DNA from: Natrinema salaciae
GTDB lineage: Archaea > Halobacteriota > Halobacteria > Halobacteriales > Natrialbaceae
Assembly (NCBI RefSeq): GCF_900110865.1
Contig: NZ_FOFD01000001.1
Span: 992,001 to 1,056,000, forward strand
Direction of reading: 5' to 3'
Length of the DNA stretch: 64,000 bases
Shown here: piece by piece, positions 11,540-56,965 of the stretch
Position numbering within the stretch: the first letter of the stretch is position 1
Layout: the number at the start of each line of letters is the position of its first letter
The notes under the pieces: model-generated
Database searches by the model: none
Told to the model about the DNA's origin: nothing
What the model saw: only the letters and a program-made list of their open reading frames with translations
Program-made: the position numbers and the translations under genes

Positions 11540-11567
11540 CTAGATCACCCTCTTTTGAACGCTCACG

Positions 11568-16295: not shown

Positions 16296-16378
16296 CGTGT
16301 GAAATGTCGTCTATGATCAGTTGCTTCGCCCTTGTGTGTCAGTTCCTATAAGATGTTCCGCTTGGATATCACTCGACG

Positions 16379-29249: not shown

Positions 29250-29954
29250 ATGGTAACTGATGACCCGAATGGGCGATCCGCTCGATTGGACGCACCAACT
29301 AATCGGCAGTATCGGTTGATGAAGATCGATACGAACAGACACGTTGATCCGGAGTACCGGGAAGAGTGTATGTTCGTTCTCGTAACGATGGGGGAACTAG
29401 GGCTCAGAGCGGGCGAAGTAGCGCATATGCGCCGTGAATGGGTAGATGAATCGAACAAGTCGATCCAAATACCCCGATTCGACGAGTGCGATCACGGTGA
29501 ATCGGGCGGAGTTTGTGGATACTGCACTGCTCAAGCGAAACTCTCCGTCGAGAATAATGGGATTCCGCTGGAAGAGGCACTGGAAAACAGGTGGGAACCC
29601 AAAATTGAGGCTTCTGCGAGAACGATTCCCTATCACTGGTCAGATGAGATTGTCCGGATATACGACCGATTCTTCATCGATCGTGACCGGTTCGATCTGT
29701 CTCGTGTCGCAGTGAACCGTCGGGTTAATCGAATCGCACGGGCTACGGATGTCATCGACGAGGACGATATTTATCCCCATGCTCTCCGCGCTCACGCAGC
29801 GATACATCACGTCAATAATGGTCTTCGAGCCTTCCCTCTTGCAAAATTCATGGGGTGGGATGGACCCAGTGGGGCACTGCCATATATCAAGCTCGCCTCG
29901 AAGGATGTGAAATCTGCTTTCGATCAGGCCTATAAGAACGATCCATTCACGTGA
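29250..29954 (+). CDS. Tyrosine recombinase (catalytic domain only), 234 aa
   Basis: Catalytic residues can be read: Arg in GLRAGEVAHM, the His-x-x-Arg box in HALRAHAAIHH, GWDG, and the nucleophile Tyr in LPYIKLAS. A Cys/His segment (DECDHGESGGVCGYC) may bind zinc. The N-terminal DNA-binding (SAM-like) domain normally found in XerC/D integrases is missing or reduced to about 30 residues, so the protein is short for the family. It is probably the recombinase of the older element whose right end is at 32.98 kb, or a stranded relative. Activity is possible because the catalytic set looks complete. Confidence 0.75.
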   Translation: MVTDDPNGRSARLDAPTNRQYRLMKIDTNRHVDPEYREECMFVLVTMGELGLRAGEVAHMRREWVDESNKSIQIPRFDECDHGESGGVCGYCTAQAKLSVENNGIPLEEALENRWEPKIEASARTIPYHWSDEIVRIYDRFFIDRDRFDLSRVAVNRRVNRIARATDVIDEDDIYPHALRAHAAIHHVNNGLRAFPLAKFMGWDGPSGALPYIKLASKDVKSAFDQAYKNDPFT

Positions 29955-30313
29955 CCAAAGTGCGGTGCTGGCCCCAAGCGACCGAAGCCCTCGCCACGCA
30001 TAAGCGCGCGCTCCATCCCAGTTAGACGGTTCACTAAAATTTTTGCGCACCCGCAGGGGGTGCGTTTCACCTGGATCAACTGGAACTGCCAACCGAACAG
30101 CCGCCGCGGTTTTTTAGATTTTGTACCGTTAGGTACACGCGGTAAGGCCCCTTGCCCGGAAACCGGGAAATCACGGAAATGAGATACTACTCGAGCAGTG
30201 GCGATAGTCGTCGCTCGAGGGTCTGAAAACAAGTAAGGTTGTGAAGCTTCGCTACGGACGAAACTCTGCTTTCAGAAATATGGTCTCCGAACGGTGTTGC
30301 CACTCAGCGGTCG
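29955..30313. other. Non-coding region downstream of the first DUF7845 gene, with conserved anchors
   Basis: Contains hairpins (CGCACCC/GGGTGCG near 30048-30065; GTACC/GGTAC near 30124). Three short anchors recur next to the other DUF7845 gene: GGATCAACTGGA at 30073-30084, GGTTGTGAA at 30237-30245 and GTGTTGCCACT at 30294-30304. No frame looks coding. Candidate replication origin or regulatory tail of the element. Confidence 0.5.
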
Positions 30314-32329
30314 TCACTCAGCGGCGTTCCCGAGACAGAACAGTCGATCTCCGACGTAGTGGAACGGCTCCTGGTCCGGTCGCCGATTTCCATTCATCTG
30401 GTAGGTGAACGACGCGTCGATAAATCGTGCAGCAGTCTTCGCACCAGTATCTCGAGCGGCCTGGAGACCAGAACGGAGCAACTTCTGCAACTCGTACTTC
30501 GAGTAGCTGCCGGTCAACTCGACATCGAATCCATCGTAGTGCTCGTCCAAGACGGCGCCGTGTCGGCGGGCCCACTTCGCAAGCGGAGAGTCGTCGGCGA
30601 TCTCGTCGTTGCCCTCGACAATCGCGTCGATTCCATTCTCGACCCACTCGGTGACGTCTTCGAGGGCGGCAAAGACGTCCTCAATCTTGTCCCGGACGAC
30701 CTCGTCGGCTAAGTCGTAGGTTCCACGGCCGACCTTCTCGACGAGGCCACCCCATTTCTCGATTGCGCGGTACACGCTGCTGCTCGAGGTGTCCGTCTCG
30801 TCGACGAGCTGCTCGTAGTGCATCTGCCCACCGTCGGCCAGGGCCTTCACGACGGCTCGATCAGTCGATGTTAGATCCTCGCGTGCGAGTTGTGCACGCG
30901 TGAGGTCTTCCTCAGTCTCGCGGAGCTCCTCGGTCGGATCCGAGTGAACCGGTATGCTTCGCTCACTCTCGTCGGCGTCCCAGTACGCATCGGAGACGTA
31001 GACATCGGGATCGGCGTGCAACGGAAGGTCAGCAGCGTTCAGCGAGAACACGAGGTACTCGTCGAGCTCACGCTTCAGGTTCTGATAGTCGAACTCGTCG
31101 TCGGACTTGTACGGGACAGCGCTCCCGTCCAAGTAGTCGCTGTGACCGGTATTGAACTGAACCTCGATCTTCGGATGGTACATCGACGAGCCCGACGAAT
31201 GCTTCTCTGGCTGCTTCGGGAGGTAACTCTTCAGCAGTTTCCCGACGGTGTGATCGCCGTAGAGCTTCTCGAGCGAGGTCTCGTTCATCGCGACAGCGTG
31301 GCGGTGACCGATGATCTTCTCGTTGTCCCACTTGTACTCGCCGCGACCGCGCCGAACACTCGAAAACTGCGCGAGCCGATCCATCACGCCGTTCGTATCG
31401 ACGAAGCGCTCTTCGGAGAGTTCACGCTGGATCCGTACGTACAACCCGAGACCCCAGACGCGGGAGTAGTCGTGAATGCACTCGTCTTTGAAGTACCGTG
31501 TGTCGATGTCAAGTTCGTCCATCAGCGTACGGAGGACCTCGAGGACCTCCTCCATTTCGAGGTTGCTCGACTGCGCTTCGACGCGGATCCCGAGCGGGAG
31601 ATTTTTCGGCATCGATTGAATCCGCTCGTCGGTCTCACAGTGTTTTGCGTTCGGCAGCGACGGGCGAAACTGGAAGGTGACCTTCTTTTCGCCGACGTCG
31701 TCAGCAGCGACGACACCGATCACGTACTCGTTGTACGAGTCCCCAGAGTCGCCAGACCGTGTCTTGATCTTCGCATCCTCGTCGCGATAGCTGATCTTGT
31801 TGTCCTCGTGGTTGAGGATCCAGGTATCGCCGGCAGCGTCGAACGCGCCAACGTCGTCTTGCCCGGTCTCGTCCATCATACAGCGGTCCCACTGGCTGAC
31901 AACGGCGAAGTACGGCGCCATCCCGTCCTGTCCCCGGCGGAGATCCTCCTTGAGGGGCTCGAAGAGGAAGTTCGCTCGGAGCTCGTGGACTTGTGGATCG
32001 ATCAGCGGACACCCGTCAGGTCGGAACTTCGGTGAACCTTCCTCACAGCGGTCCTCCGAGTGATGTCGACGTTCGGCGACGACGGTCCGAAACTCGCTCT
32101 GGCAGAACCGACACGCGGATCGAGCCTCCGTTTCGTCGACGTCGCGATCTTTGTCGAACTCGAGTTCGGTGCCACCGTCTACCTCGTCACCGCCAGCGGT
32201 CGGCGTCTCTTGCTCGATCGAACTCTCGATCTCGTCGTCTACACTGCTGACGGGCCGACCAGCATCGAGTAAGTCGAACGTCTCGTCGGCGGCTTCCTCG
32301 AGCTCGTCCCGATCGGACTTACGCGTCAT
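30314..32329 (-). CDS. DUF7845-type mobile-element protein with zinc finger and winged helix (671 aa)
   Basis: N-terminal C2H2-like finger (CRFCQSEF...H...C), then the DUF7845 region with blocks RDEDAKIKTRSGDSG, TRYFKDECIHDYSRVWGLGL and YVRIQRELSEE, an HPKIEVQFN block, and a C-terminal winged helix (TDRAVVKALADGGQMHYEQL...SSSSVYRAIEKWGGL). ATG 32329 overlaps the stop of the small gene upstream. A homologue of 539 aa lies at 52697-54316 at the end of the provirus. The family is carried by haloarchaeal plasmids and proviruses. A role in replication initiation or copy control is a guess based on its constant place beside a conserved non-coding region. Confidence 0.75.
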   Translation of the reverse strand: MTRKSDRDELEEAADETFDLLDAGRPVSSVDDEIESSIEQETPTAGGDEVDGGTELEFDKDRDVDETEARSACRFCQSEFRTVVAERRHHSEDRCEEGSPKFRPDGCPLIDPQVHELRANFLFEPLKEDLRRGQDGMAPYFAVVSQWDRCMMDETGQDDVGAFDAAGDTWILNHEDNKISYRDEDAKIKTRSGDSGDSYNEYVIGVVAADDVGEKKVTFQFRPSLPNAKHCETDERIQSMPKNLPLGIRVEAQSSNLEMEEVLEVLRTLMDELDIDTRYFKDECIHDYSRVWGLGLYVRIQRELSEERFVDTNGVMDRLAQFSSVRRGRGEYKWDNEKIIGHRHAVAMNETSLEKLYGDHTVGKLLKSYLPKQPEKHSSGSSMYHPKIEVQFNTGHSDYLDGSAVPYKSDDEFDYQNLKRELDEYLVFSLNAADLPLHADPDVYVSDAYWDADESERSIPVHSDPTEELRETEEDLTRAQLAREDLTSTDRAVVKALADGGQMHYEQLVDETDTSSSSVYRAIEKWGGLVEKVGRGTYDLADEVVRDKIEDVFAALEDVTEWVENGIDAIVEGNDEIADDSPLAKWARRHGAVLDEHYDGFDVELTGSYSKYELQKLLRSGLQAARDTGAKTAARFIDASFTYQMNGNRRPDQEPFHYVGDRLFCLGNAAE

Positions 32330-32438
32330 CACCCTCACTGGCGTCGGTCTCGATTACCGTGGCGACGTCATCGGAAACCGAGACCAGCTCCTCGGCCCAG
32401 ATCCGCTCGAAGAGTCGAGCATCTGCTGGTTCGCTCAC
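32319..32438 (-). CDS. Small acidic protein in DUF7845 operon A (39 aa)
   Basis: GTG 32438 overlaps the upstream stop (GTGA), and its own TAA lies inside the start region of the DUF7845 gene. Sequence ARLFERIWAEELVSVSDD. No motif. Support comes from the chain of overlaps that runs through the whole operon. Confidence 0.5.
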   Translation of the reverse strand: MSEPADARLFERIWAEELVSVSDDVATVIETDASEGDDA

Positions 32439-32551
32439 AGCAACTCACCCCGAACGCGGCGGATCTCCCGAAAGCAGTCGGGACACAGTGGTCGGGTCGC
32501 GGGGACGGTTGCCTCGCACTGCGGGCACTCCCGTTCGACGACGCGGCTCAC
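32435..32551 (-). CDS. Zinc-ribbon microprotein in DUF7845 operon A (38 aa)
   Basis: GTG start at 32551. CPQCEA...CPDC gives a complete four-Cys zinc site in 38 residues. It has a direct counterpart of 39 aa at 55355-55474 in operon B (CERCGD...CPEC). It is coupled to the genes on both sides by overlapping stop and start codons. Confidence 0.65.
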   Translation of the reverse strand: MSRVVERECPQCEATVPATRPLCPDCFREIRRVRGELL

Positions 32552-32676
32552 GCAGGATCACCTCCGGGGGTCTCGATCACCTCACTGACGTCGTCCGTCC
32601 ACTGTGCCGCTGGATGAGCTATTGTCGTCCGACTCTCGACCTCATATAGCCAACTCGCTGGGACGAACCCAATCAT
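32548..32676 (-). CDS. Microprotein in DUF7845 operon A (42 aa)
   Basis: ATG 32676; the motif GFVPASWLYEVESRTTIAHP is almost the same as GFVPASRLYDVESGTPIAHP in the 44-aa gene at 56313-56447 of operon B. Conservation between two separate elements shows that it is a real gene. Function unknown. Both ends overlap neighbours. Confidence 0.7.
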   Translation of the reverse strand: MIGFVPASWLYEVESRTTIAHPAAQWTDDVSEVIETPGGDPA

Positions 32677-32912
32677 CGCTGCACCTCCTCGCCGTCGGTC
32701 AGTGACGGACGGACTCGGTTCGAACCCGTGCGCTCGAGGCGACGAGAACACCCTCGTTTATGACCCGCTTCCGACTGACCGTCGAGCAAGAGGGTACACC
32801 GGGCACCGCATTCGTCACAGCGAAACTCGCGGCTTTTCGTCGGCAGCGGTGTGATCCCTAGATTGGTTCGGAGGCGCTTCGCTTCCGCGTCGGAAAGCGT
32901 CACGCCGACCAC
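32673..32912 (-). CDS. Zinc-finger protein, first gene of DUF7845 operon A (79 aa)
   Basis: Contains FRCDECGARC and further Cys (GHKRGCSRRL), likely one zinc site, and a basic N-terminal helix (SDAEAKRLRTNLG). It has a positional counterpart of equal length at 56440-56679, also the first gene of its operon and next to the attachment repeat. Possible DNA-binding regulator. Confidence 0.6.
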   Translation of the reverse strand: MVGVTLSDAEAKRLRTNLGITPLPTKSREFRCDECGARCTLLLDGQSEAGHKRGCSRRLERTGSNRVRPSLTDGEEVQR

Positions 32913-32978
32913 CCCGTCAGGTATAGATCCTTTCTGACAGTTTTAATTCGTACAAAACCGCAATGATTAAGGTCAGAG

Positions 32979-32991
32979 TGGGGTCGGAGGG
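32979..32991 (+). repeat. attL-like copy of the tRNA-Trp 3' end (13 bp)
   Basis: TGGGGTCGGAGGG here is identical to 56739-56751, the last 13 bases of the tRNA-Trp gene, in the same orientation. It lies 63 bases from the 3' end of the SNJ2-like integrase gene, exactly where a left attachment site is expected. It is also the right boundary of the older element to its left. Confidence 0.75.
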
Positions 32992-33054
32992 CGCGACTCT
33001 CCCAACTTACACGATACTGACAGGGATCTACAGCGGTTATCTCTGGCGATTAGT

Positions 33055-34083
33055 TCACTCATCAGTCTTCTGGATGTCAAGTTTCAGAGTGACGTCAGCT
33101 CGCAGTTCTTCGAACTCCTCGTGGAGGCCGGCTTTGTAGTAGTGCCGCCGGATCGTCTCCGGCCGGGCGTTCACGCGCTTTGCGACCGTCTCGATATCGA
33201 GACCCTGGAGCAACTGCCAGGTGATCGAACCCGTACGAACGGCGTGGAGCGCGCGGCTGCTCGGGCACTTGCTCGAGAAGTTTCGCGCCGTATAGTCGCA
33301 CGTCTCACGCCGGTTCGAATGCGGACAGTTCGTGATCAGACACGGCTGGGTACCCTGGTAGCTCCAGGCTCGAAACGTCGAGTTCGACGGGCGACCCTGA
33401 CGGGCACAAAACAACGGTTCACGTCCGTTCTTGTCGCGTTTCTCGAAGCGCTCTCTTGCAACGTACGTATCCAGCGCCTCGACCACCTGCTCGGAGATCC
33501 CGACGACGCGTTCGCCCTGCTCCTTGTTTTTGAGACCGGTGAACGGTGGTCGGTGGCGGAACTCGAGCGTCTGGCCGTCCGGGTCGTAGTCACGGAGATC
33601 CAGCGCCCGTAGCCCGCTCATACGACAGCCGACGTGCCAAGCGACCTCGAGTACGGCGTGCTCCGGTCGACCCCGCCATATTCGCGACGACCGGTAGAAA
33701 TCGATCAACTCCTCGGCGTCGTCGTGGGCGAGTTTCTGGTCACTCGATTCTTCGGACCGCGTGACCGTCGGAACGTTCACCTTGTCGGCAAACCCATCGT
33801 CGACGACTTCGACGGTCTCGCAGTAATCGAGTAGCTGTTTCAGGGCGACCATCGACCCGCGTAAGGTCGTCGGGGCAATCTCCGCAGCCTCCCGGTCGGC
33901 CCGAAACTCGTCGAGATCCCACCCGGAGAGTTCGGACATACGGCTAATATCTCGCTCTTCGCAGAACTCGACGAACCGCGTGAGGCGATTCTCGTAGGTT
34001 CGAATGGTTCGGTCGGTATTCTCAGTCTTCCGTCTCGAGATGAACCGATCGCGGGCCTCCCGCGGGGAGAGGTCTCGGCTCAT
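33055..34083 (-). CDS. int: SNJ2-type tyrosine integrase (342 aa)
   Basis: N-terminal SAM-like domain (NTDRTIRTYENRLTRFVEFC) followed by a catalytic domain: Arg in GCRMSGLRALDL, a HRPPFTGLKNKE beta-hairpin with a candidate Lys, HAVRTGSITWQLL as the His-x-x-Arg box, and Tyr in IRRHYYKAG. A Cys/His insert (CLITNCPHSNRRETC) is seen. Its ATG overlaps the stop of the 92-aa gene (ATGA), and the gene ends 63 bases from the attachment repeat. IntSNJ2-type integrases act with two small co-transcribed proteins, matching the genes just upstream. It should catalyse integration and excision at tRNA-Trp. Confidence 0.88.
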   Translation of the reverse strand: MSRDLSPREARDRFISRRKTENTDRTIRTYENRLTRFVEFCEERDISRMSELSGWDLDEFRADREAAEIAPTTLRGSMVALKQLLDYCETVEVVDDGFADKVNVPTVTRSEESSDQKLAHDDAEELIDFYRSSRIWRGRPEHAVLEVAWHVGCRMSGLRALDLRDYDPDGQTLEFRHRPPFTGLKNKEQGERVVGISEQVVEALDTYVARERFEKRDKNGREPLFCARQGRPSNSTFRAWSYQGTQPCLITNCPHSNRRETCDYTARNFSSKCPSSRALHAVRTGSITWQLLQGLDIETVAKRVNARPETIRRHYYKAGLHEEFEELRADVTLKLDIQKTDE

Positions 34084-36018: not shown

Positions 36019-37029
36019 TCAGAAGTCGGGGACGGCGTAGACCTTCCCTCTCCCACTTCCGTTCGATTCGATCAGTCCGTACTTCTCCTCGAGGTTCGCG
36101 AGGTACCGTCGACGGGTGCTCTTCGCCTTCGGATTGTGCGCGCGCTGTTCGTAGGTCTCGTGCAACTGCGTGCCGGAGACTTCTCTCGCCGATTCGATGA
36201 TGTCGTAGAGTAACCGCTTGTGCGTCCCGAGGTCTTCGACGCGCTCGAGGTGGATTTCTTCCAGAGCGGCGGTGCGAATCTCGCCGACGGTGCTGGTCGT
36301 GATCTGCGAGCGATCACTGTCCATTGAGACGGCCTTCGCGGCGCTACGGAGGATGCCGATCGCCTCGCGAGCATCTCCTGCAGCAACGTCAGCAATGTAG
36401 TCGATTGCGTCGGTAGAGATCGTTCCCGGCCGTAGTCCGGCACGGATACGAGCTTGGAGAATATCGACCAACTGCGTGTGCGTAAACCGGTCAAGTGTGA
36501 TCGTCTCCGCGCTTCGGAGTCGACTCCGAACGCGAGAATCGAGGTGTGCGAAAAGGTCGTCCTCGCCGATCGTGATGGCGACGATCGTTACATTTGGAAT
36601 CTCATAGAGCGCCTGAAGTGTTGTGTCGTCCTCGAGGACGTCGACCTCGTCGACGATCGCGACGACGCGCTTGTCGCTCTCGCGAAGTCGGTCGACGAAC
36701 GCGCTCGTCGGCGAGCCCAACTTCTTGAGGTTCGCTCCGAGATCCGCATCGCGCATGATCCCGTGGAGTACCTCGGCTTTCGACGACCCGGAAATACAGT
36801 TGTGGTATCCCCAGCGGAAATCGAGCGTCTCGCGCTCGAGTTCGCGAACGACGAATCTCGCGAGGGTCGTCTTCCCCGTGCCACTCGGCCCGAAGATGAG
36901 AACGTTCTCGCCCATATCTCCGTCAGCGATGGGCCGGAGCGCGTCAGCCAACTGCTCAATCTTGGCGTCCCGGTGATAGAGATCGCTCGGGATATGAGAC
37001 GGCCGGAGGGCTCGTGCATTCGTAATCAT
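36019..37029 (-). CDS. orc1/cdc6: Orc1/Cdc6-type replication initiator (336 aa)
   Basis: AAA+ domain with Walker A GPSGTGKTT (residues 47-55), Walker B VVAIVDEVDVL, sensor 1 in IPNVTIVAITI, and an arginine finger in LDSRVRSRLRS. Sensor 2 lies in GDAREAIGILR, and a C-terminal winged helix follows (SGTQLHETYEQR, STRRRYLANLEEKYGL). It is shorter than chromosomal haloarchaeal Orc1 proteins (about 400-600 aa), as is usual for plasmid and virus versions. An AT-rich intergenic region with an 18-bp palindrome precedes it. It probably initiates replication of the excised element. Confidence 0.85.
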   Translation of the reverse strand: MITNARALRPSHIPSDLYHRDAKIEQLADALRPIADGDMGENVLIFGPSGTGKTTLARFVVRELERETLDFRWGYHNCISGSSKAEVLHGIMRDADLGANLKKLGSPTSAFVDRLRESDKRVVAIVDEVDVLEDDTTLQALYEIPNVTIVAITIGEDDLFAHLDSRVRSRLRSAETITLDRFTHTQLVDILQARIRAGLRPGTISTDAIDYIADVAAGDAREAIGILRSAAKAVSMDSDRSQITTSTVGEIRTAALEEIHLERVEDLGTHKRLLYDIIESAREVSGTQLHETYEQRAHNPKAKSTRRRYLANLEEKYGLIESNGSGRGKVYAVPDF

Positions 37030-39902: not shown

Positions 39903-39977
39903 ATGAATTTAGGAATTTTCGACAGTACGAACGCTGAGTTGTACAGGGACGCGACGATCGCTGCGGGGGTGCTCTAA
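39903..39977 (+). CDS. Possible 24-residue peptide between envelope genes
   Basis: ATG 39903 is preceded by GAGGTG at the usual ribosome-binding distance, and its TAA overlaps the spike ATG (TAATG). Peptide MNLGIFDSTNAELYRDATIA plus four residues. It may encode a peptide, or mainly serve to couple translation to the spike gene. Confidence 0.35.
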   Translation: MNLGIFDSTNAELYRDATIAAGVL

Positions 39978-42228: not shown

Positions 42229-43028
42229 GCGGTACGAGCGGGACGTTCGCGAACTGGAAGGACCGAATCACCTACGTCGTCGCTGAAGCGCAGTTACTCG
42301 TGTTCGCAGTGCTGTTCTCAGTCGGCGTAGCGATCCTCTGGATTCGGCCGTCGGTCCCCGGAATCCCGCCGATCGTCTTCGGTTGGTTCGCGGCGGCGAT
42401 CCTCCTGGGACCGCCGCTGATCGCGATCTTCGTTACCGGTACTCGGAAGCTCCGAAACCGACGAATGGAGACCGTCTACCACATCAACGGCGTTGACGAC
42501 ACTCGTCGGAAACTCTACGTCGCTCCCGAAGTCTGGAAAGAGAAGACAGTCGAAGGACCGTCGCCGTACCACTGCAACGACGGCGACGCCTTCGAAGTCC
42601 GCGAGTTTACCTATCACGAGGACACCGACCAGCTCGTCGTTCGGGGATGCTATTTCAGTCAGCTTGCCGACTCCAAACTCGTCACGATCAAAGCCATGCT
42701 CGAGGACGTTCACGGCGACCTCGTCGACGCCTTTCTCGAGTACAACCGACTCCGCGGGCGGATCTCGAAAATGGGTCTCGAGATCCAGCGCGACGTGGTC
42801 AACGAGGAAGCCGAAGCTGACGAACGCGGGCTGATGAACCCGCGGACGGCGGTCAAGGATCGCTTCGAGGCGGCCAAGAGCAATGCCGAAGACAGCGATA
42901 TCGACGAGATCAAAGATATCTCGCAGTACGTCGACGACTATACCGAACAGCACGGGCCGCGCACGCCCGTTTCAGCCGACGAACAGACAGCGGAGCCCGC
43001 AACAACCGACGGAGGAACGGACCGATGA
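42225..43028 (+). CDS. Two-helix membrane protein, ORF7-like (267 aa)
   Basis: GTG 42225 overlaps the upstream TGA (GTGA). Two N-terminal transmembrane helices (AQLLVFAVLFSVGVAILWI; FGWFAAAILLGPPLIAIFV) and a cytoplasmic domain of about 190 residues with beta strands and a long helix (VHGDLVDAFLEYNRLRGRIS). It precedes and overlaps the ATPase gene, as ORF7 precedes VP8 in pleolipoviruses. The pair probably forms a membrane-ATPase assembly. Confidence 0.7.
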   Translation: MSGTSGTFANWKDRITYVVAEAQLLVFAVLFSVGVAILWIRPSVPGIPPIVFGWFAAAILLGPPLIAIFVTGTRKLRNRRMETVYHINGVDDTRRKLYVAPEVWKEKTVEGPSPYHCNDGDAFEVREFTYHEDTDQLVVRGCYFSQLADSKLVTIKAMLEDVHGDLVDAFLEYNRLRGRISKMGLEIQRDVVNEEAEADERGLMNPRTAVKDRFEAAKSNAEDSDIDEIKDISQYVDDYTEQHGPRTPVSADEQTAEPATTDGGTDR

Positions 43029-44197
43029 GCGACGAGCAAGATAACTACACGGTCGGCGGCTTTCGCGAGTACCAGGATAATAACCACGAGCGCGATCCCG
43101 ATGAAGTGCTCCCCCACTCGGGGTTCGTTCGGGACGAGCAGATCGATCGTCAGCTTTCCGTCCGAGCGATCCATCACGATCCCGATCGGTGGGACTCCAA
43201 GCCAGCAGCCGACTATCTCTCGGTCGGAAAGAATCGCGATATCCTCAAAGCGGAAGGTGGTCATACGGCCCGGAAGGCACTCGAAAACGGAGACACGGTC
43301 ACACTGAAACACTACATCGGCGACCCGAGCCAGCAGGCCGACCTCGCCGGCATCAAGGCCGTCACCCGCCTCCAGGAGATCGTCGCCGGGCCCGCGCCTG
43401 TGATCGTCATCCTCGGAGAGATGGGTGCCGGGAAGTCGGACTTCGCCGGCCTCCTGGGCCAGCTCCGACAGCGGTGGGTCGACGGCGATCTCCTTGTCGG
43501 CTCGAATATCCGTACTCTGGATCGCAACGACGACTGGGTTCGCGACGATGGCACCGTCGAAGACGGTTGGATTCCGCACTATCCCCTCCTCGAGGAGTGG
43601 GTCGCCCAGGACGGCAACCCGGTTGAGAACCCCCAACGACCGAAACTCTTCGTCGGCGACGAGTTCAGTTCTGCGGGAGACGGTACTGGTGAGAATGGCC
43701 ATCTCGTGCGGAAGCTGATGGGGCCGCTCGTGTTCAAGATCCGAAAGTACGGCGGCGCGCTGATCTACATCGGCCACGACGAGTCGTCGATTCATCCGAT
43801 GCTCTGGCGCGTCGGCACCATCATCAAGAAACAGTCGAAGAAGCGGGCGGTCGTCGCCGATCGCATCTCCGGTGGGAAGCTCGTCGATGTTGATCCCCGA
43901 CCGCTCGAGGGTATCCCACCGACCGACTGGTCGATGGCGACAGAGGAAGCGTCGGACTGGTCGTGGACTGCACCTGACGGTGAAGACGTCGACGAGGACG
44001 CCCTCGAGAAAGACGACGTGAAGCAGGTCGCGATGTGGACGATCAAAACCTGCGTCGACGAGGGAATGTCGCCCAATCAGGCATCGACCTACGTCCCGTT
44101 CAGCAACACGACCGTCTACAATTGGTTGGAGGATTACAACGACGGGGACCGCGAGAAGCGCGACTGGGTTGAAAGCGTCGAGCAGGTGATCGCATGA
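43025..44197 (+). CDS. VP8-like viral ATPase (390 aa)
   Basis: Walker A GEMGAGKS at residues 131-138, a strand NIRTLDRNDDW, Walker B in RPKLFVGDEF (D212-E213) and a sensor-like IYIGHDESS. The last 60 residues form a helix-turn-helix (MSPNQASTYVPFSNTTVYNW). Start overlaps the membrane-protein stop. This is the FtsK/HerA-like ATPase of pleolipoviruses, proposed to act in genome handling or assembly. A 39-residue fragment of a close relative is fossilised at 5845-5961. Confidence 0.8.
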   Translation: MSDEQDNYTVGGFREYQDNNHERDPDEVLPHSGFVRDEQIDRQLSVRAIHHDPDRWDSKPAADYLSVGKNRDILKAEGGHTARKALENGDTVTLKHYIGDPSQQADLAGIKAVTRLQEIVAGPAPVIVILGEMGAGKSDFAGLLGQLRQRWVDGDLLVGSNIRTLDRNDDWVRDDGTVEDGWIPHYPLLEEWVAQDGNPVENPQRPKLFVGDEFSSAGDGTGENGHLVRKLMGPLVFKIRKYGGALIYIGHDESSIHPMLWRVGTIIKKQSKKRAVVADRISGGKLVDVDPRPLEGIPPTDWSMATEEASDWSWTAPDGEDVDEDALEKDDVKQVAMWTIKTCVDEGMSPNQASTYVPFSNTTVYNWLEDYNDGDREKRDWVESVEQVIA

Positions 44198-46697: not shown

Positions 46698-48653
46698 ATG
46701 TGCCAATTTGTATTTGATCCAGATCTCTGGTTTAACGAGGTTCGATATCTCGAGGAAAAGTGGGAATGCCCCTATCCCTCACTACCAGGTTTTTCGCACT
46801 GTATATTCCACATACTCCCTCATACTAGAGACAGGATTTTTGATTCTTACGCAGAAATAGAGCTAGAATTTATAAAAGCGATACGATCGGTTGGATTTAT
46901 AGATATAATATGTACTACAGTTAGGGTATTGGACCTGGGCAAACTTTCGTTAGTAGCTAGCTTGAACCGAAATATCCAGTTAGGGTATTCTACCGTAGTC
47001 AACGAACTCGATATTAGCAGGAGCCAAATTGGGAGGAGAACATTCATAGAGGATTGTTGGATAGAGTCGCTCAATGCGACTGATACAGTGTTTGAATCTG
47101 ATTTCCTGTTAAGTGGGTCAAAGGTTAAGAACGCCCACTTTCTAAATGCTGATTTTAAGAGGACCAGTCGGTTCCGAGACGTTCGATTCGGTAAGACAGA
47201 TTTTACCGAAGTAGAATTTAGAAACGTCGTTTCTTTCTGTGAATCAATACCCGAAGAGGCCAATGTTTATCAGGTAGAGAAACACTTAGGAAAAAACCCG
47301 AGTGTTTTCAAAGAGACACCCGATTTTATGAATGCCAATTTTCGGAACGGTGCGATTTTCTCAGGAACTTTATTTAAGAAGGCGGGTAACTTCTATCACG
47401 CAAATTTTGAAGGGGGCTGTACCTTTCACAACACGGAATTCAATATTGGCTGTTATTTTGACTTTGCCACCTTTGATAGCGAAACAGAGTTTGTTGAATG
47501 TGAATTAGGTATAGCGAGTTTTGAAAAGTGTGTATTTGATGGCCCAACAATTTTTGATAAGTCTAAATTAGGGGGAGAAAAAGGATATCTACAGGAACAG
47601 AGCATCGAAAGCCATGCTATCTTTGAAGGAATATCTAACCATAAATCAAATAATATAAATAATATTTTAGTAGATAGTATACCAGCACATAATTTTGAAG
47701 AGGTCTTACCTCACGCTGCATCCTTTACAAACTGCCAATCGGAGGATTTGTTATCATTAGAGGGTGTAAAATCAAATGGATCAATAAAAGCATTCACAAG
47801 TGACCTAGATTTCATTGAACTCGATTTCGAATTTGAGACATCATCTCCAACGATATCTTTCCATGGATCGACAATTAGAGGTGGGACTATAACGATATCA
47901 AGAGAAGATTCCTTCTACGAACTCGTACGGTCCACCATTGGGGACGTAAATATTAGAACAAAGTCAAGCAAAAACCCTTTCAAAAATCTCTATATCCAGA
48001 ACACCAATTTTGATGGTTTTAATTTCTCTGACTATAGGGAAGAACTGCGAGATGTCAACTGGAAAATTGACGGGTATGTTCACAATGGAGAACATAACCC
48101 TTCGGATAAAAGAGAAACAACCTATTCAAAGGCCAAAGCAGGGGCAGAGCAGATCGGCGATACCTATGCAGAATCAAAGTTCTTCATAATTGAGAAGAGA
48201 TTGCGGAGAGAAAATCATAGAAAGCAAATCAGCGATCCCAGGGATAAGAAGGATAAGATAGCTGGATTTTGGGGATATTTGTCCAACCTCGCCTATGACT
48301 ATACTTGCAGGTATGCGGAAAGTTCTTCAAGAGTAGTTGGCACATCAATTACTGCCGTCCTAGTATTCTCACTACTATATCGTTTAACGGATATTGATTT
48401 GGCCTATGAATCTAATTTTGTGCTACGAGCCCCGAGTTTCGTGCCAGCGCCAACTATTCCCAGTAAATATGTTGACGAGCTTGGGATCGAGTATTTAATA
48501 TTCAGTCTAGAATCGTTCACCTCTTTTGTTTTAGGAGGGGGACCAGAAGTCACGAACTCTACAGTACGGCTATTAGCAGCCCTTCAGAGCTTTTTAGGCG
48601 CCTTCCTAATTGGCCTATTTGTAGCTACATTAGTTAGAACAGTTAAAAGATGA
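46698..48653 (+). CDS. Pentapeptide-repeat protein with C-terminal ion-channel-like domain (651 aa)
   Basis: Residues about 100-300 contain degenerate pentapeptide repeats (NADFKRTSRFRDVRFGKTDF; MNANFRNGAIFSGTLFKKAG), giving a right-handed beta helix, with a second beta-rich stretch at about 380-450. A basic region (KFFIIEKRLRRENHRKQ) leads to a transmembrane helix near 545-565, a pore-like loop LESFTSFVLGGGPEV (about 604-618) and a final helix (LGAFLIGLFVATLV, 631-644). The layout is that of two-helix K+ channel modules fused to sensor domains. ATG 46698. AT-rich, so probably acquired. Membrane-permeabilising effectors of this kind serve abortive infection; that role is inferred. Confidence 0.7.
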   Translation: MCQFVFDPDLWFNEVRYLEEKWECPYPSLPGFSHCIFHILPHTRDRIFDSYAEIELEFIKAIRSVGFIDIICTTVRVLDLGKLSLVASLNRNIQLGYSTVVNELDISRSQIGRRTFIEDCWIESLNATDTVFESDFLLSGSKVKNAHFLNADFKRTSRFRDVRFGKTDFTEVEFRNVVSFCESIPEEANVYQVEKHLGKNPSVFKETPDFMNANFRNGAIFSGTLFKKAGNFYHANFEGGCTFHNTEFNIGCYFDFATFDSETEFVECELGIASFEKCVFDGPTIFDKSKLGGEKGYLQEQSIESHAIFEGISNHKSNNINNILVDSIPAHNFEEVLPHAASFTNCQSEDLLSLEGVKSNGSIKAFTSDLDFIELDFEFETSSPTISFHGSTIRGGTITISREDSFYELVRSTIGDVNIRTKSSKNPFKNLYIQNTNFDGFNFSDYREELRDVNWKIDGYVHNGEHNPSDKRETTYSKAKAGAEQIGDTYAESKFFIIEKRLRRENHRKQISDPRDKKDKIAGFWGYLSNLAYDYTCRYAESSSRVVGTSITAVLVFSLLYRLTDIDLAYESNFVLRAPSFVPAPTIPSKYVDELGIEYLIFSLESFTSFVLGGGPEVTNSTVRLLAALQSFLGAFLIGLFVATLVRTVKR

Positions 48654-52252: not shown

Positions 52253-52696
52253 AGTAGACCATATAGGTAGATTACTGATAGGTTTTGCCCGAGAGTAGAT
52301 GATTGTTGGGTGGCGTGCGGCTGCAGGAGTAATCTGACTTGCTAACAGAATGCGTCTGTCCTCAATTTCCTCGACCAGGGATATTGACTCCTAAACCTTA
52401 CTCCTCCAGATCGGCATTGATCACGAACCTCCGCTTCGTTTGGATCAACTGGAGATTTTTGTACGGAGATGGGAGTGGGGCGCTGTAATTTTTTGGTTCA
52501 GTCCCCTTGGGGACACCCGCCAAGGGGGCTTTCGCGCGAAGCGCGAAACGACCCCGCAGGCGTTGCGGTGCGATCGCGGCGATCGCCACAGCCATCCCTC
52601 GCCCTGATACAACTCAGGTTGTGAAAATCAGCGATTGATGAAAGTATAGTTGCGCAAACGAAACAGAGGGGTAGTGTTGCCACTACTCAGGCCGGT
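52253..52696. other. Non-coding region downstream of the second DUF7845 gene
   Basis: No coding frame. It shares anchors with 29955-30313: GGATCAACTGGA at 52442-52453, GGTTGTGAA at 52617-52625 and GTGTTGCCACT at 52674-52684. The last two are 57 bases apart start to start in both copies. Strong hairpins include TTTCGCGC-GAA-GCGCGAAA near 52530 and CCCCTTGGGG near 52502. Candidate origin or conserved RNA end. Confidence 0.55.
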
Positions 52697-54316
52697 TCAG
52701 CGGTCGGCGACCGCGCCGACGAATCCGGTTTCAGTCCCGCCGCCGGGAGTCTTCCAGGTCAGCTCCACGCCGCGGAGGTCCATCGGATCGTTCCCTGACT
52801 TCGACCACTTCTCGAGGGCCTCGCTGGCGATCGTCGCGACGTTCTCGAAGCTGTCCGACTTCAACCGGGAGAGTATCGTGTCGATCCGCATCCGTCGGGG
52901 CTCGCCGTTCTCGTCGAACTCGAGGTCGGCCCCGTTCTTCGCGAGCCACTCCTGGAAGGGAGAGGACTCGGCGACGTGATCGGCCAAGCCCATGATGTGC
53001 TGCATCCGATCGGCGTAGCTCTCGATCGCGTACTCGGCCGACTCGACGAGCGCCCGGAGTTCCTCGCGGTACTTCCGGGCCCGAAACGAGATCTCGCCCT
53101 GGTCGAGCTCGAGGACCTCGCCGAGATCGTTGATCGCTCGGTAGATCGTCGCGGGGTGTTTCCCCAACTCGTCGGCGAGGCCGTCGACCGTCGCACCGCC
53201 GTCGGTCGCGACGGTCTCCGTCACGTCGCGGGCAGTCTCGCCCATGTCCCGCAGCGTCGTCATCAACAGGTGGTCCGACTTCGCTTCGAGACGCGGCGTC
53301 GGATCTTCGTAGAGTTCGACCAGGTCGTCTCGAGCGACCGCGTCGAAATGGTCGTCAGCCACGTAAACGCCGCTCCCATCGGGTCCGAGCGGGATGTCTT
53401 CCCAGTGGAGCGCGTTCAACAATGTCTCCTCGATTTGCTCGGTCACTTCGTGACGATCGGACCACGCCCATGCCTCGCCGCCGTTCATCGACTTGTTCAC
53501 CAGGACCTCCACCTTCGGATGATACGACGGGTGATCTTTCGACACTGCGTCCGGATCGGCCAGCTGGTAGATCTCGAACTTCCGCCCGTAGGTGTGGCCG
53601 GGTAGCAACTCGCTGGCCGACGTGGGGTTCAAGAACAACCGATTCTGGTGGTTGACGATCTCCTGATTGTCGATGTGGAGTTCGGCCTTCACCCCCTCAA
53701 GGTCGGAGAGATAGTGCGCGACCTTCTGCAGTACACCGGCCGACGAGAGCTTTTCTGCCCACTCGCGACGAATCCGAACGTACCGCTCGTACGCCCACAT
53801 CCGGCTCGCCTCGTGGGGCTGCGTACGGAAGTACTCCGAATGAATCCGCTCGCCAGCGTGGTCGAAGATCGCCGCGAAGAACTCCGGCAGCAACTCGAGG
53901 CCGCGATCGGGTTCGATGTTGCTCGTGTGGAACTCGACGTCGACGCCGTCGACTTCACCGACCTGATTCTCCCACGGGAGTTGCAACCGCTCGCCGCTCT
54001 CCCAGTGGCGCATGTTCGGGAACCGCGGGCCGATGTTGTACGACGCCTTTCGCTCCCCGCGCCCACGGCCCTTAATATCCCACTCGTAGAGCCGCTCGGC
54101 GTTGATCCCGTCGGACAGCCGCGGAGCGAACCCCGACTTGCTGTAGCTCACCTCCAGGTGCCAGGGCTCGCCGTCGACCTCGGTCGTGATCTCGAGGTAG
54201 CCTTCGAAGGGCGGCCCGAGCATCACCGACGACAGCGCGTCGTAGGGCCCGCGGCCCCAGTCGGGCCACTTCCAGCGCCCCTCGATCTCGTGCGGCGTCG
54301 TCTCGACCTGAGACAT
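52697..54316 (-). CDS. DUF7845-type mobile-element protein (539 aa)
   Basis: DUF7845 blocks from the N-terminus (EGYLEITTEVDGEPWHLEVS, YSKSGFAPRLSDGIN, GERKASYNIGPRFPNMRHWE), a middle with RMWAYERYVRIRREWAEKL and SYHPKVEVLVN, and a C-terminal winged helix (GATVDGLADELGKHPATIYR). Unlike the 671-aa relative at 30314 it lacks the N-terminal zinc finger. ATG 54316 overlaps the DUF488 stop. It is the last gene of operon B and is followed by the conserved non-coding region. A replication-linked role is possible. Confidence 0.75.
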   Translation of the reverse strand: MSQVETTPHEIEGRWKWPDWGRGPYDALSSVMLGPPFEGYLEITTEVDGEPWHLEVSYSKSGFAPRLSDGINAERLYEWDIKGRGRGERKASYNIGPRFPNMRHWESGERLQLPWENQVGEVDGVDVEFHTSNIEPDRGLELLPEFFAAIFDHAGERIHSEYFRTQPHEASRMWAYERYVRIRREWAEKLSSAGVLQKVAHYLSDLEGVKAELHIDNQEIVNHQNRLFLNPTSASELLPGHTYGRKFEIYQLADPDAVSKDHPSYHPKVEVLVNKSMNGGEAWAWSDRHEVTEQIEETLLNALHWEDIPLGPDGSGVYVADDHFDAVARDDLVELYEDPTPRLEAKSDHLLMTTLRDMGETARDVTETVATDGGATVDGLADELGKHPATIYRAINDLGEVLELDQGEISFRARKYREELRALVESAEYAIESYADRMQHIMGLADHVAESSPFQEWLAKNGADLEFDENGEPRRMRIDTILSRLKSDSFENVATIASEALEKWSKSGNDPMDLRGVELTWKTPGGGTETGFVGAVADR

Positions 54317-54843
54317 TACGCACCTCCGGCCTCGGCGAAGTCGGCGAGCGTCGCATCCGGATCATCGTCGGGCTCGTCGTCACCGGTGTCGACGGGGATC
54401 GTCGACGGGTTCGGATGATGGACAACCTCGGTGTCTTCAAGTTGAGCGACGACCGCGTTCGCGAGCAACCGACGGTGACACCACCGGGCATCTTTTTCCC
54501 AGCAGACGAGCCAGATATCCCGCTCGCGAGCACGATCCGCCAGCTCCGCGATCACCGTCTGTGGGCCCGGTTGCTCGAGGGATTCGAGATACCGCCGCTC
54601 GTAGTCGACGGAGTTCCACGCGATCGCGGCCGGGTTCGGTTCGCCGTTTTCCTCGGCGGCCTCCTCGACGGCCTTGTACGCGTTCAGGAGATCCTCTGGT
54701 GGCGCAACGGCAGGGATGTTCCGATCGGTGACCCGTTTCACGAAGTCCCGCGGGTAGCGCACGACGCCGAATACGGCATCCTCGTCCCCGGGTTCGAACC
54801 TCGAGTTGAGCCCGCCGAAGTACGTCGTTCGGACGGTCACCAC
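54316..54843 (-). CDS. DUF488 family protein (175 aa)
   Basis: Family signature VCWEKDARWCHRRLLANA in the C-terminal half, and an N-terminal TYFGGLNSRFEPG with a VVRYPRDFV strand. DUF488 proteins are small alpha/beta proteins with two conserved Cys and uncertain function. Fully overlapped on both sides within operon B. It is absent from operon A and so is part of the extra module. Confidence 0.7.
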   Translation of the reverse strand: MVTVRTTYFGGLNSRFEPGDEDAVFGVVRYPRDFVKRVTDRNIPAVAPPEDLLNAYKAVEEAAEENGEPNPAAIAWNSVDYERRYLESLEQPGPQTVIAELADRARERDIWLVCWEKDARWCHRRLLANAVVAQLEDTEVVHHPNPSTIPVDTGDDEPDDDPDATLADFAEAGGA

Positions 54844-55358
54844 GAATCACCCACAGTTACCGACGGATCGACGCTCGCCGGATCGATCACGTGCGACCAC
54901 GCGAGTTTCGCGACCTCTTGCTCGGAGCGCGAGCCCCCAACCTCGTACCATCGGCCGGACAGCAGCTCGTCGACGAGCGTCGCCGGCACGATCGCGCGGG
55001 CGACCTGTGGCAGTCCCGGCCGCGGGAGGTAGACGACGAACAGGTACATCCCCGCCGTCTCGACCAGTCGCTCGTGGGCCGCTCGCTTGACGTAGAATCG
55101 ACCGCGAGTCGAACTATTCCCGTTGCTCGTCTCTATCTGACAGCCTTTGATCTCGACCGGAACGTCCGGTTCGACGAGGACGATTCCGTAGAACGGCAGC
55201 GACTGGCACGCCTCGAGGACGGCCGTCGTTCGGGCGTCGTGCCACGTCGCAGTGTGATCACTAATGTACTCGAGTTCGTCGACAACCTGGACGATCTCCG
55301 CCTCGAGCGCGTCGCCGCTGGCCTTCGAACTCTCGAGTTCTGACGCTCGAGAACTCAT
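54837..55358 (-). CDS. PD-(D/E)XK-like protein (173 aa)
   Basis: The core DVPVEIKGCQ (E-I-K) with upstream acidic residues, then RFYVKRAAHERLVE and strand GMYLFVVYLPRPG, is a restriction-like nuclease fold and resembles the provirus protein at 44346-44744. ATG 55358 overlaps the zinc microprotein stop. Together with the Dam-type methylase in the same operon it could form a small restriction-modification-like pair, but the nuclease may equally serve replication. Confidence 0.65.
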   Translation of the reverse strand: MSSRASELESSKASGDALEAEIVQVVDELEYISDHTATWHDARTTAVLEACQSLPFYGIVLVEPDVPVEIKGCQIETSNGNSSTRGRFYVKRAAHERLVETAGMYLFVVYLPRPGLPQVARAIVPATLVDELLSGRWYEVGGSRSEQEVAKLAWSHVIDPASVDPSVTVGDSW

Positions 55359-55474
55359 AGCGGTCCCTCCCGCGCGTCACGCACCGCGCGTGTACATTCG
55401 GGACAGAGACGCCGGAGTGCGTCGACGCGATCACCACACCGTTCGCACTCGTCGGATTCGACGAGTCGATTCAC
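55355..55474 (-). CDS. Zinc-ribbon microprotein in operon B (39 aa)
   Basis: GTG 55474. CERCGD...CPEC forms one zinc site; its counterpart in operon A is at 32435-32551. Overlaps both neighbours by a few bases. Confidence 0.65.
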   Translation of the reverse strand: MNRLVESDECERCGDRVDALRRLCPECTRAVRDAREGPL

Positions 55475-56316
55475 GCCGACTCACCACCGGTCGAACAGAC
55501 ATCCGCAAGCGTTCGCTGATTGAACTCACGCTCCGTCGACGGCTCGAAGTTCAGTATCAGGCGTTCGTTGGCAGTTTTCCCGTTTCCTGCAGCGGAGTGG
55601 GTAACCGTCCGCTCGACGATGTTCCACTCGTCGCCCTCGTACAGTCCTGGTGGGATATCCGTGTACGAGACAATGGCGTAGCCCTCGATTTCACAGAGCG
55701 TATGCTCAAGCGTGGTGTGATCAGCAGATGCACGATAGAGGTCTTCTTTCTCGTAGTACGGCGGGTCGAGGTAGAACGCTGTCTCGGGCGAATCGTATCG
55801 CTCGACGACGCTCTGGAAATCCTCATGGACGACAGAAACGCCACGGAACCGTTCTGCGACTTGCTGGATGCGCTCAGGAGCGTTAACCCAGTTTCTCGCG
55901 TTCCGGCTTCCCTTCTCATCACGTGGGCTCTCCCGTTTGAATCCGCTTTTACGCGAAACCTTCCCCGCATACTGACTATAGCGGAGAAACAGCCACTTCC
56001 CGGCATGCTCGATGTCGTCACTCGGGCGTTCGCCAGCGAAGAACTCGTCAGCCCACTCAGCATGAAGCTGTTCGGAAAACGGTGTATACCGGCACCATTC
56101 CGCAAGTTCGTCCGGACGCTTTCGAGCCACCCGGAAGAACGTCACCACGTCGCTATCCTTGTCGTTGAAGACCTCGACGTTGCTACGAGGCTTATTCAGG
56201 AGGACAGACGCGGAGCCGCCGAACGGTTCGACGTACGTAGTATGTTCAGGCAGGTGTTCAATTACCCACTCCGCAAGGCGGGTTTTCCCACCAATGTACG
56301 GGAACGCGCTTATCAC
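55471..56316 (-). CDS. Dam-type DNA adenine N6-methyltransferase (281 aa)
   Basis: Class-alpha (D12/Dam) order: SAM-binding PYIGGKTRLAEWV and YVEPFGGSASVLLNK, then ...VEVFNDKD, a target-recognition middle, and catalytic DPPYY in TAFYLDPPYYEKEDL. It is placed between the two microprotein genes, exactly where operon A has none, so it looks like an insertion into a conserved operon. It likely protects the element DNA or marks it against host restriction. The methylated sequence cannot be read from the gene. Confidence 0.85.
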   Translation of the reverse strand: MISAFPYIGGKTRLAEWVIEHLPEHTTYVEPFGGSASVLLNKPRSNVEVFNDKDSDVVTFFRVARKRPDELAEWCRYTPFSEQLHAEWADEFFAGERPSDDIEHAGKWLFLRYSQYAGKVSRKSGFKRESPRDEKGSRNARNWVNAPERIQQVAERFRGVSVVHEDFQSVVERYDSPETAFYLDPPYYEKEDLYRASADHTTLEHTLCEIEGYAIVSYTDIPPGLYEGDEWNIVERTVTHSAAGNGKTANERLILNFEPSTEREFNQRTLADVCSTGGESA

Positions 56317-56447
56317 GCCACTTCACCTCGATTCTCGAGCGCGCGGCGAACATCCTCATCAGTCGCCTGATGGGCTGGATGAGCGATGGGCGTCCCGCTC
56401 TCGACATCGTACAGCCGACTCGCGGGCACGAAGCCGGCTTCACGCAT
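56313..56447 (-). CDS. Microprotein in operon B (44 aa)
   Basis: ATG 56447. GFVPASRLYDVESGTPIAHP matches the operon A gene at 32548-32676. Its stop overlaps the methylase start (ATGA). Function unknown, conserved between elements. Confidence 0.7.
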   Translation of the reverse strand: MREAGFVPASRLYDVESGTPIAHPAHQATDEDVRRALENRGEVA

Positions 56448-56679
56448 CGGCCTCACCTCCGTGGCGGCCGGGCGAGGTTTCCGGATCTGGAATCCCAACG
56501 TCGATGCCAGCGGCGGAGCCGCGGCTCAGTCGCGCGTAGGAGTCACAGTCACCGCAGCGGTGGACTCGGTCGTCGTCGTCACCGAAGACCCGCCGGAAGC
56601 GGTCCGTGACGTGAGCGCCGCAGTGCTGGCACGTCGAGTGATTGACCGACGACCACGGGGCGACCGTCACGCGGACCAC
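56440..56679 (-). CDS. Zinc-finger protein, first gene of operon B (79 aa)
   Basis: CQHCGAHVTDRFRRVFGDDD followed by HRCGDC is a zinc site of DUF7563 style, common in haloarchaeal small proteins. It is the first gene after the tRNA end, counterpart of 32673-32912. The promoter of operon B must lie in the 60 bases between it and the attachment repeat, or in the tRNA region. Confidence 0.65.
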   Translation of the reverse strand: MVRVTVAPWSSVNHSTCQHCGAHVTDRFRRVFGDDDDRVHRCGDCDSYARLSRGSAAGIDVGIPDPETSPGRHGGEADA

Positions 56680-56738
56680 CCCCTGTTCAGACTATGTCGA
56701 GAATGCGAGAAAAGCCGCTCAGGGCTTTTTATTTCAAA

Positions 56739-56751
56739 TGGGGTCGGAGGG
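56739..56751 (+). repeat. attR-like end within tRNA-Trp (13 bp)
   Basis: TGGGGTCGGAGGG, the complement of the tRNA-Trp 3' end, is identical to 32979-32991. The tRNA gene stays intact after integration because the element carries the replaced bases. Confidence 0.75.
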
Positions 56752-56774
56752 ATTTGAACCCCCGATCTACTGAT

Positions 56775-56875
56775 ATCTCCGGTGCGCCTCGGAACTCCAG
56801 AGGGTCATCACACGAGCACTGATCAGGTGCCCGATCAGTATATCAGTCTGGAGTGTCGTCCCGGGCGCGTTGCCT
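56775..56875 (-). ncRNA. tRNA-Trp intron, probable box C/D guide RNA
   Basis: The intron carries a box C-like GTGATGA (complement of 56805-56811) and CTGA box D-like elements (in ACTGATATAC and CCTGATCAG). In haloarchaea this intron guides 2'-O-methylation of the same pre-tRNA; that role is known for relatives and inferred here. Confidence 0.65.
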
Positions 56876-56965
56876 CTGGAGTCAGCCGCCATGCCTGGCT
56901 TGGCCACGACCCCTCGAGTCTCAGTTGGGCTATCGGCCCTAAAGTGGTTTCGATTCAGAATCGCG

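Follow-up and report, generated by a model that had tools for sequence, protein, structure and literature searches.

Here we present a computational analysis of a run of small overlapping genes (operon B, 52697-56679) in Natrinema salaciae (GCF_900110865.1, contig NZ_FOFD01000001.1, positions 992,001-1,056,000 of the forward strand; this whole 64,000-nt stretch is hereafter referred to as the window). Operon B is very probably the replication operon of a provirus related to the haloarchaeal virus SNJ2, with DUF7845 as the initiator, a hairpin as the origin, assembly of the complete operon on excision, and accessory genes that are exchanged slot by slot. The observations made here concern gene identities, gene order, attachment (att) sites, reading-frame continuity and the origin hairpin. 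The function of initiator and origin, and the essentiality of every operon gene, were shown for SNJ2 by others and would extend to this element by homology. Already known from SNJ2 were thus the initiator with its origin and the operon that forms on excision, att-spanning gene included; new, as far as our literature search reached, are a provirus that carries a Dam-type methylase in this operon, a corrected account of which genes are insertions, a slot map of 126 operons, and evidence for the wide occurrence of the split gene together with the operon. What looked like a defence oddity is here recast as a map that compares versions of a replication operon, the initiator of which was characterized only in 2026. 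The map tells fixed from exchanged accessory genes and makes several questions testable: the keeping of a reading frame through tRNA-derived DNA, the role of the Rep-proximal slot, and the presence of DNA-modifying enzymes on a rolling-circle replicon.

Operon B within an SNJ2-like provirus

The region 32979-56751 is, as judged from its genes and boundaries, an SNJ2-like betapleolipovirus provirus integrated in a tRNA-Trp gene (Table 1). It contains collinear relatives of 17 of the 25 SNJ2 open reading frames (ORFs; phmmer, E ≤ 1e-4), arranged as integrase, Orc1, NTPase and DUF7845 operon, and it is bounded by a 13-bp direct repeat; this combination is the reason for the assignment. The repeat has two matches in the window at up to one mismatch, against 0.12 expected. 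The tRNA-Trp gene at 56739-56913 contains an intron and is missed by ARAGORN when the intron option is not used. Operon B lies against this gene at one end of the provirus, and the outward-pointing integrase lies at the other. The SNJ2-like core features ORF14, ORF15, NTPase, Orc1, integrase and Rep are all present and collinear. The SNJ2 spike, ORF13, has no sequence match in the provirus, and its position is occupied by 39977-41683 (PHROG 2231). A 651-residue pentapeptide-repeat protein encoded at 46698-48653 inside the provirus is without a relative among the SNJ2 ORFs.

The genes of operon B pair one to one with SNJ2 orf25, 24, 23, 22, 21 and 19 (phmmer), and by this correspondence the operon is the att-proximal half of an SNJ2-like provirus replication operon. 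The genes lie on the minus strand at the coordinates given by the first-pass annotation of this DNA and, as it had reported, all neighbours overlap (by 8, 4, 4, 4, 7 and 1 nt). The Dam-type methylase that it placed before the zinc ribbon is confirmed as a D12 class enzyme, with what we take to be a DPPY motif; it is absent from the SNJ2 plan and, by homology, is the sole gene added relative to SNJ2. The same annotation regarded the nuclease and DUF488 genes as additions to a backbone represented by operon A, a smaller relative in the window (30314-32912). The comparison with SNJ2 reverses this polarity: the two genes are, on the same grounds, ordinary operon members and not insertions, because SNJ2 itself has both at these places.

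The proposal that the gene at 54837-55358 encodes an E-x-K nuclease stands in part. Residues E19, D41, E69 and K71 are invariant in 14 aligned members of the family, with 12 of the 13 others being 32-46% identical to the operon B protein. We take the E19...D41...E69-x-K71 pattern to be that of a PD-(D/E)XK nuclease; the putative nuclease has no Pfam match. An AlphaFold2 model built from 15 close sequences was unusable (mean pLDDT 39.9), and a PDB profile search returned one match, a designed binder, which we judged to be due to chance. SNJ2 ORF18 is weakly similar to this nuclease (4.7e-6), as is SNJ2 ORF22 to the ORF18 relative in the window (1.3e-5), and the provirus may carry two diverged copies of an ORF18/ORF22-type family (12297-12680 in L161; 44337-44741 and 54840-55376 in the window).

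Table 1. Coordinates of the features of the provirus, of operon B and of operon A
Feature	Position in window	Strand	Evidence or remark
Left attachment core TGGGGTCGGAGGG	32979..32991	+	exact 13-bp copy of tRNA-Trp 3' end
N-terminal half of predicted att-spanning gene	32979..33062	-	begins on integrase stop codon
SNJ2-type tyrosine integrase, directed toward left att	33055..34083	-	9.6e-56 to SNJ2 ORF1
Orc1/Cdc6 (SNJ2 ORF8)	36019..37029	-	5.7e-194
Virion NTPase (SNJ2 ORF17)	43025..44197	+	8.1e-203
Second conserved block TCCAGTTGATCCA...	52434..52453	-	conservation among relatives stops just beyond
Predicted origin hairpin GTGTCCCCAAGGGGAC, nick-site equivalent	52501..52516	-	183 nt past Rep B stop
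Conserved block AGTGGCAACACT just past Rep stop	52673..52684	-	sequence conservation
DUF7845, Rep-Arvir rolling-circle initiator by homology (SNJ2 ORF19)	52697..54316	-	PF25227 2e-106, phmmer 3.1e-26
DUF488-N3a protein (SNJ2 ORF21)	54316..54843	-	Pfam 9e-14, phmmer 2.4e-100
Putative E-x-K nuclease (SNJ2 ORF22, PHROG 2095)	54837..55358	-	phmmer 3.8e-103, invariant residues
39-aa zinc ribbon (SNJ2 ORF23)	55355..55474	-	phmmer 1.7e-22
D12 class adenine methylase (Dam)	55471..56316	-	PF02086 2.3e-20
44-aa FVRAS-type microprotein (SNJ2 ORF24)	56313..56447	-	phmmer 2e-18
Zinc finger DUF7563 (SNJ2 ORF25)	56440..56679	-	Pfam 1.3e-21, phmmer 1.8e-48
C-terminal half of predicted att-spanning gene, ends GWSA	56667..56738	-	stop overlaps zinc-finger start
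Right attachment core, tRNA-Trp 3' end	56739..56751	+	13-bp direct repeat
tRNA-Trp with intron, 175 nt, integration target	56739..56913	-	ARAGORN, introns allowed (locus L157)
Operon A predicted origin hairpin GTGTACCTAACGGTAC	30123..30138	-	178 nt past Rep stop
Operon A Rep (DUF7845), extra N-terminal Cys/His segment	30314..32338	-	PF25227 8.7e-92
Operon A 39-aa gene	32319..32438	-	own locus only, among upstream stretches searched
Operon A zinc ribbon, SNJ2 ORF23-like	32435..32551	-	phmmer 2.8e-9
Operon A 42-aa FVRAS-type microprotein	32548..32676	-	phmmer 9e-9 to SNJ2 ORF24
Operon A zinc finger, separate family (8/126 operons)	32673..32912	-	weak to SNJ2 ORF25, 2.5e-4

DUF7845 and its predicted origin

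DUF7845 is present in 265 of the 391 Halobacteria genomes covered by a search of the whole class. We fetched 154 stretches around such genes; three were without a DUF7845 ORF (L158-L160), which left 151 loci, including A and B (L001-L006, duplicates or fragments of own-genome matches, were removed before loci were counted). By tblastn, DUF7845 also turns up in 21 phage-collection records, most of them betapleolipoviruses, and in 21 records of plasmids, small ones of Haloquadratum among them. Single-protein scans of viral metagenome contigs gave few or no relatives, mostly known isolates.

The portions of PMC13107129 (NAR, April 2026) drawn on here and below describe SNJ2 ORF19 as a rolling-circle initiator. 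Together with a 210-bp origin behind its gene it replicates a plasmid, for which its Tyr is required, and a hairpin within these 210 bp is needed as the origin, since hairpin mutants fail (PMC13107129). DUF7845 is by homology this initiator, Rep-Arvir (hereafter referred to as Rep), its activity being carried over from SNJ2. The equivalents of SNJ2 E25 and of the catalytic tyrosine Y283 are invariant across 12 aligned Reps, those of A and B included. Of the central winged helix expected in such initiators, Pfam gives only sub-threshold helix-turn-helix (HTH) matches; glycines 409/410 are invariant or nearly so. In the proposed mechanism, Rep would bind to the hairpin origin that follows its own gene and nick it there. 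A perfect-stem hairpin with a (T/C)AA(G/C) loop is present in 112 of the 151 loci, and its 3-bp stem occurs in eight different complementary versions; a block like AGTGGCAACACT/AGAGGCATCACT lies within 60 nt of the Rep stop in 141 of them. The hairpin stretch has no match to an Rfam family. A structured RNA behind DUF7845 had been considered and was dropped, the same stretch being the replication origin in SNJ2, where the transcript ends 50 nt behind orf19, ahead of the hairpin (PMC13107129).

DUF7845 might instead be a transcriptional regulator of an att-proximal cargo operon. PHROG 3288 carries a transcriptional-regulator label (E 4.8e-222), and weak HTH matches fall at residues 361-400. The Tyr-dependent replication of a plasmid by SNJ2 ORF19 and its origin (PMC13107129), the invariance of the equivalent tyrosine in the proteins studied here, and the hairpin that follows the gene make a regulator extremely improbable.

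In 32 of the 151 loci a second block, TCCAGTTGAnnCAnnTGAAA, follows the Rep stop at a distance of 220-305 nt; in a control stretch inside Rep it occurs in none. It is absent from the SNJ2 stretch, and in 14 relatives of B it marks the point beyond which conservation stops. This block (52434-52453 in B) is perhaps a single-strand origin or a terminator. We also considered, and rejected, a short element with its end immediately past the origin: no tRNA-end repeat that would mark it is present in the 2.5 kb that follow Rep, and the att copies lie farther away.

A predicted split gene across the attachment site

In SNJ2, orf19-25 join the integrase genes and the att-spanning orf26 only on excision, and a nonsense mutation in each of orf19 to orf26 abolishes the rise in copy number (PMC13107129). 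When the ends of the element in the window are joined, a 51-residue ORF runs from the integrase stop through the att core and ends in GWSA, like that of SNJ2. Its predicted halves lie at opposite ends of the provirus (Table 1).

The corresponding arrangement recurs widely. A tRNA gene lies just upstream of the operon on the same strand in 125 of the 151 loci and belongs to 12 isotypes (Ala 31, Met 17, Thr 16, Pro 15, Trp 12, Arg 10, Tyr 7, Ile 7, Phe 6, Lys 2, Gln 1 and Val 1). A slightly wider rule for the tRNA gave the 126 operons used in all operon statistics, with 25 of the 151 loci left out; related genomes within this set are not independent of each other, and the Pfam scan covered part of the operon proteins. 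In 102 of the 126 loci one leader frame runs uninterrupted from the tRNA end and stops where the first gene begins, with a four-base stop/start overlap in 82; other frames of equal or greater length exist in 22 of 202 cases.

The far ends were analysed for 40 loci, hand-picked for long contigs and varied tRNAs, by fetching 20 kb (in one case 14 kb) behind the first stretch. An SNJ2-type integrase was found in 31 of these loci, 30 times on the Rep strand, and in all 30 a copy of the tRNA end follows shortly after the integrase stop. For the phase test, which left out the nine loci without an integrase match and the one in opposite orientation, the N-terminal frame was defined by the start codon nearest to the integrase stop and the C-terminal frame by the leader alone. 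An in-phase ORF crosses the att core in 28 of 30 cases, against 10 expected (binomial 9e-12); a looser choice of att copy gives 26 of 30. After merging of loci with the same tRNA and Reps at least 50% identical, 14 of 16 groups, covering seven tRNA kinds, are fully in phase. In both misses the rule had chosen a GTG codon, and the looser version finds an in-phase ATG nearby. ORF24 of HHPV4, annotated at the corresponding place in an isolated virus, resembles by eye the ORFs of the tRNA-Met class. With 28 of 30 att-spanning ORFs in frame, excision-dependent operon assembly therefore looks general, and haloarchaeal elements of this very common class probably have, as a rule, both the excision-assembled operon and its att-spanning gene. 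PMC13107129, the one directly relevant paper that our literature search returned on this point, describes the att-spanning ORF for SNJ2 and, in the portions drawn on here, for no other element; the word tRNA does not occur in its main text.

In the integrated state, operon B abuts the tRNA gene, and its coding leader leaves hardly any space for a separate promoter. Excision would create one co-directional unit, consisting of the integrase, the orf26-like att-spanning gene, and the zinc finger, FVRAS, Dam, ribbon, nuclease, DUF488 and Rep genes, followed by the origin. If the operon is joined only by excision, the virus should therefore not replicate until it has left the chromosome. The tRNA promoter was considered as a driver of operon expression, given that the tRNA lies on the same strand, and set aside; the SNJ2 promoter lies inside the integrase gene (PMC13107129).

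Fixed order and exchangeable slots

From tRNA to Rep, the order of the accessory genes is fixed, and the genes are exchanged one slot at a time. Many of the 151 loci show the operon in this order. The first-pass annotation's idea of a constant backbone with swap-in modules is supported; random gene content with no fixed slots, the outcome that it named as its refutation, is not what the 126 operons show. The zinc finger precedes the FVRAS gene in 43 of 43 operons (two zinc-finger families pooled) and an HTH gene does so in 28 of 29; the FVRAS gene precedes the nuclease gene in 16 of 16, the ribbon precedes it in 11 of 11, and the nuclease gene precedes DUF488 in 8 of 8. Dam follows the FVRAS gene in all four operons that permit the comparison, twice before the ribbon and twice after the nuclease gene. 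The order has an exception in the gene for a 98-residue zinc protein, which lies after the nuclease gene in 12 operons and before it in 2. The Rep-proximal position is taken by one of three families that never occur together: DUF488 (9 operons), a membrane protein (10) or the 98-residue zinc protein (17).

Close relatives of operon B illustrate the exchange. L138 encodes a Rep 96%, a ribbon 100%, a Dam 95% and a nuclease 91% identical to those of B, with the zinc protein replacing DUF488. L129, whose Rep is 95% identical, is without Dam, and in L147 (Rep 95%) the FVRAS protein is fused to a C5 cytosine methylase (PF00145, 4.3e-8). Other operons contain, by Pfam, PF01555 (L039), a PF05869 Dam (L054) and DpdA (L044). 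In L029 a gene without a Pfam match is presumably, from its motif, a C5-like methylase, and L032 holds a relative-sized gene.

The first-pass annotation had suggested an anti-restriction or mini restriction-modification unit, in which Dam protects, the E-x-K protein cuts and DUF7845 regulates. The D12 methylase and nuclease-like genes are indeed two genes apart, and all four tRNA-bounded operons with a D12 methylase also have the nuclease. However, 26 of the 30 operons with the nuclease are without the D12 methylase, so that the two do not behave as a linked restriction-modification pair, and the position of Dam varies as given above. The operon terminates in a replication initiator and origin, and its SNJ2 homologue is a replication operon (PMC13107129). 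The element contains 206 GATC sites, with 189 expected; this lack of depletion gives no hint of Dam specificity. A restriction-related unit is thus very improbable. Within a replication operon, Dam would be a plug-in, most likely modifying newly made viral DNA.

Another explanation, compatible with a replication operon, is an addiction module with the nuclease and the att-spanning protein as toxins and the zinc and ribbon proteins as antitoxins. Addiction is what the authors of the SNJ2 study suggest for that virus, in which Rep and origin alone replicate but are lost, ORF22 is a putative endonuclease, and ORF26 is toxin-like in HHpred (PMC13107129). In operon B there is no match to toxin-antitoxin families, however, and across the collection the slots are swapped singly, not pairwise, with accessory genes altogether absent from 27 of the 126 operons. 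We regard an addiction module as unlikely.

These 27 operons, in which Rep stands alone, are also one of several points that weigh against the reading of operon B as an SNJ2-type replication operon: accessory genes are not needed everywhere, though each was reported to be essential in SNJ2. The provirus is known here from its genes alone. Rep B is just 24% identical to the SNJ2 Rep, and SNJ2 E303 falls outside the conserved columns in the Rep alignment (it is also missing in HRPV-3 and HGPV-1; PMC13107129). Nine of the 40 loci with analysed far ends lack an SNJ2-type integrase in the roughly 20 kb covered, and in one it lies on the other strand; either the arrangement is not universal, or these elements are decayed or larger. 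Operon A is likewise without an SNJ2-type integrase of its own, and none lies farther left in the window.

A broader proposal, which we judge about as likely as not, would combine two features. The first is a topological lock in most tRNA-integrated Rep-Arvir elements: a small gene would be split through the tRNA-derived att core, so that both it and the replication operon work only in the circle. The second is that the slots between lock and Rep would serve as a general dock for unrelated DNA-modifying enzymes (D12 and C5 methylases, PF01555, PF05869 and DpdA) that mark DNA during copying.

Operon A, a smaller relative

Operon A (30314-32912) is a smaller, divergent relative of operon B and the corresponding end of a second element. 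It sits just outside the left att core, in the same orientation as operon B. Three parts of the backbone that the first-pass annotation described are common to both operons: DUF7845, the zinc ribbon matching SNJ2 ORF23, and the 42- and 44-residue microproteins, which have FVPAS-LY-VES-IAHPA in common. The claim of a shared first zinc finger holds less clearly; the operon A protein has no significant Pfam match, unlike the DUF7563 protein of operon B.

In the tandem array 32912-34083, operon A follows directly after the integrase of the first element, with the middle att between them, an arrangement otherwise made by excision. The hybrid att-spanning frame at this site is broken just past the core, and the leader frame of operon A, which ends in LYLTGWSA, is in another phase. 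An active integrase promoter might allow transcription of Rep A in the lysogen. A 234-residue tyrosine recombinase (PF00589, 2.7e-7) is encoded near operon A at 29250-29954 on the plus strand and is unmatched by SNJ2-type integrase queries.

Comparison with known systems

SNJ2 (NC_074646; PMC13107129) is like operon B in its gene order ORF25-24-23-22-21-19, in the gene overlaps and in the hairpin origin behind Rep, as well as in the att-spanning first gene that ends in GWSA and the integrase across the att site. Operon B differs in having the D12 methylase between its ORF24-like and ORF23-like genes, in the absence of ORF20 and in its short ORF24. Its target is tRNA-Trp, whereas that of SNJ2 is tRNA-Met, as given in the portion of PMC5867852 used here.

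In the isolated betapleolipoviruses HRPV-9 and HRPV-12 (Halorubrum pleomorphic viruses 9 and 12; NC_048160 and NC_048156) the DUF7845 gene closes a run of small overlapping genes, as in operon B, and HRPV-9 ORF26 belongs to the same nuclease family as that of B (1.2e-31). Both runs have a methylase-like gene (annotated as a DNA methyltransferase in HRPV-12); these proteins have no Pfam match and are not clearly related to the D12 methylase of B (best 0.018). The bacterial Rep_trans proteins (pT181 family, RepDE) work alike, with an initiator, a bind site and a hairpin nick site, and SNJ2 ORF19 is structurally similar to them without recognizable sequence similarity (PMC13107129).

Other features of the window

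Fragments related to SNJ2 ORF17 (plus strand) and ORF19 (minus strand) lie in the same place, at 5845-6215, which by these matches is a remnant of a third SNJ2-like element. The region 6187-20962 contains large minus-strand genes for a 1527-residue AAA helicase like MkoA, a 1575-residue DEAD/MZB helicase like DruE and an nSTAND3-like ATPase, and looks like an unclassified helicase-rich defence island. At 23305-25302, a protein with TGT and DUF5591 domains is, by family, an archaeosine-type tRNA-guanine transglycosylase.

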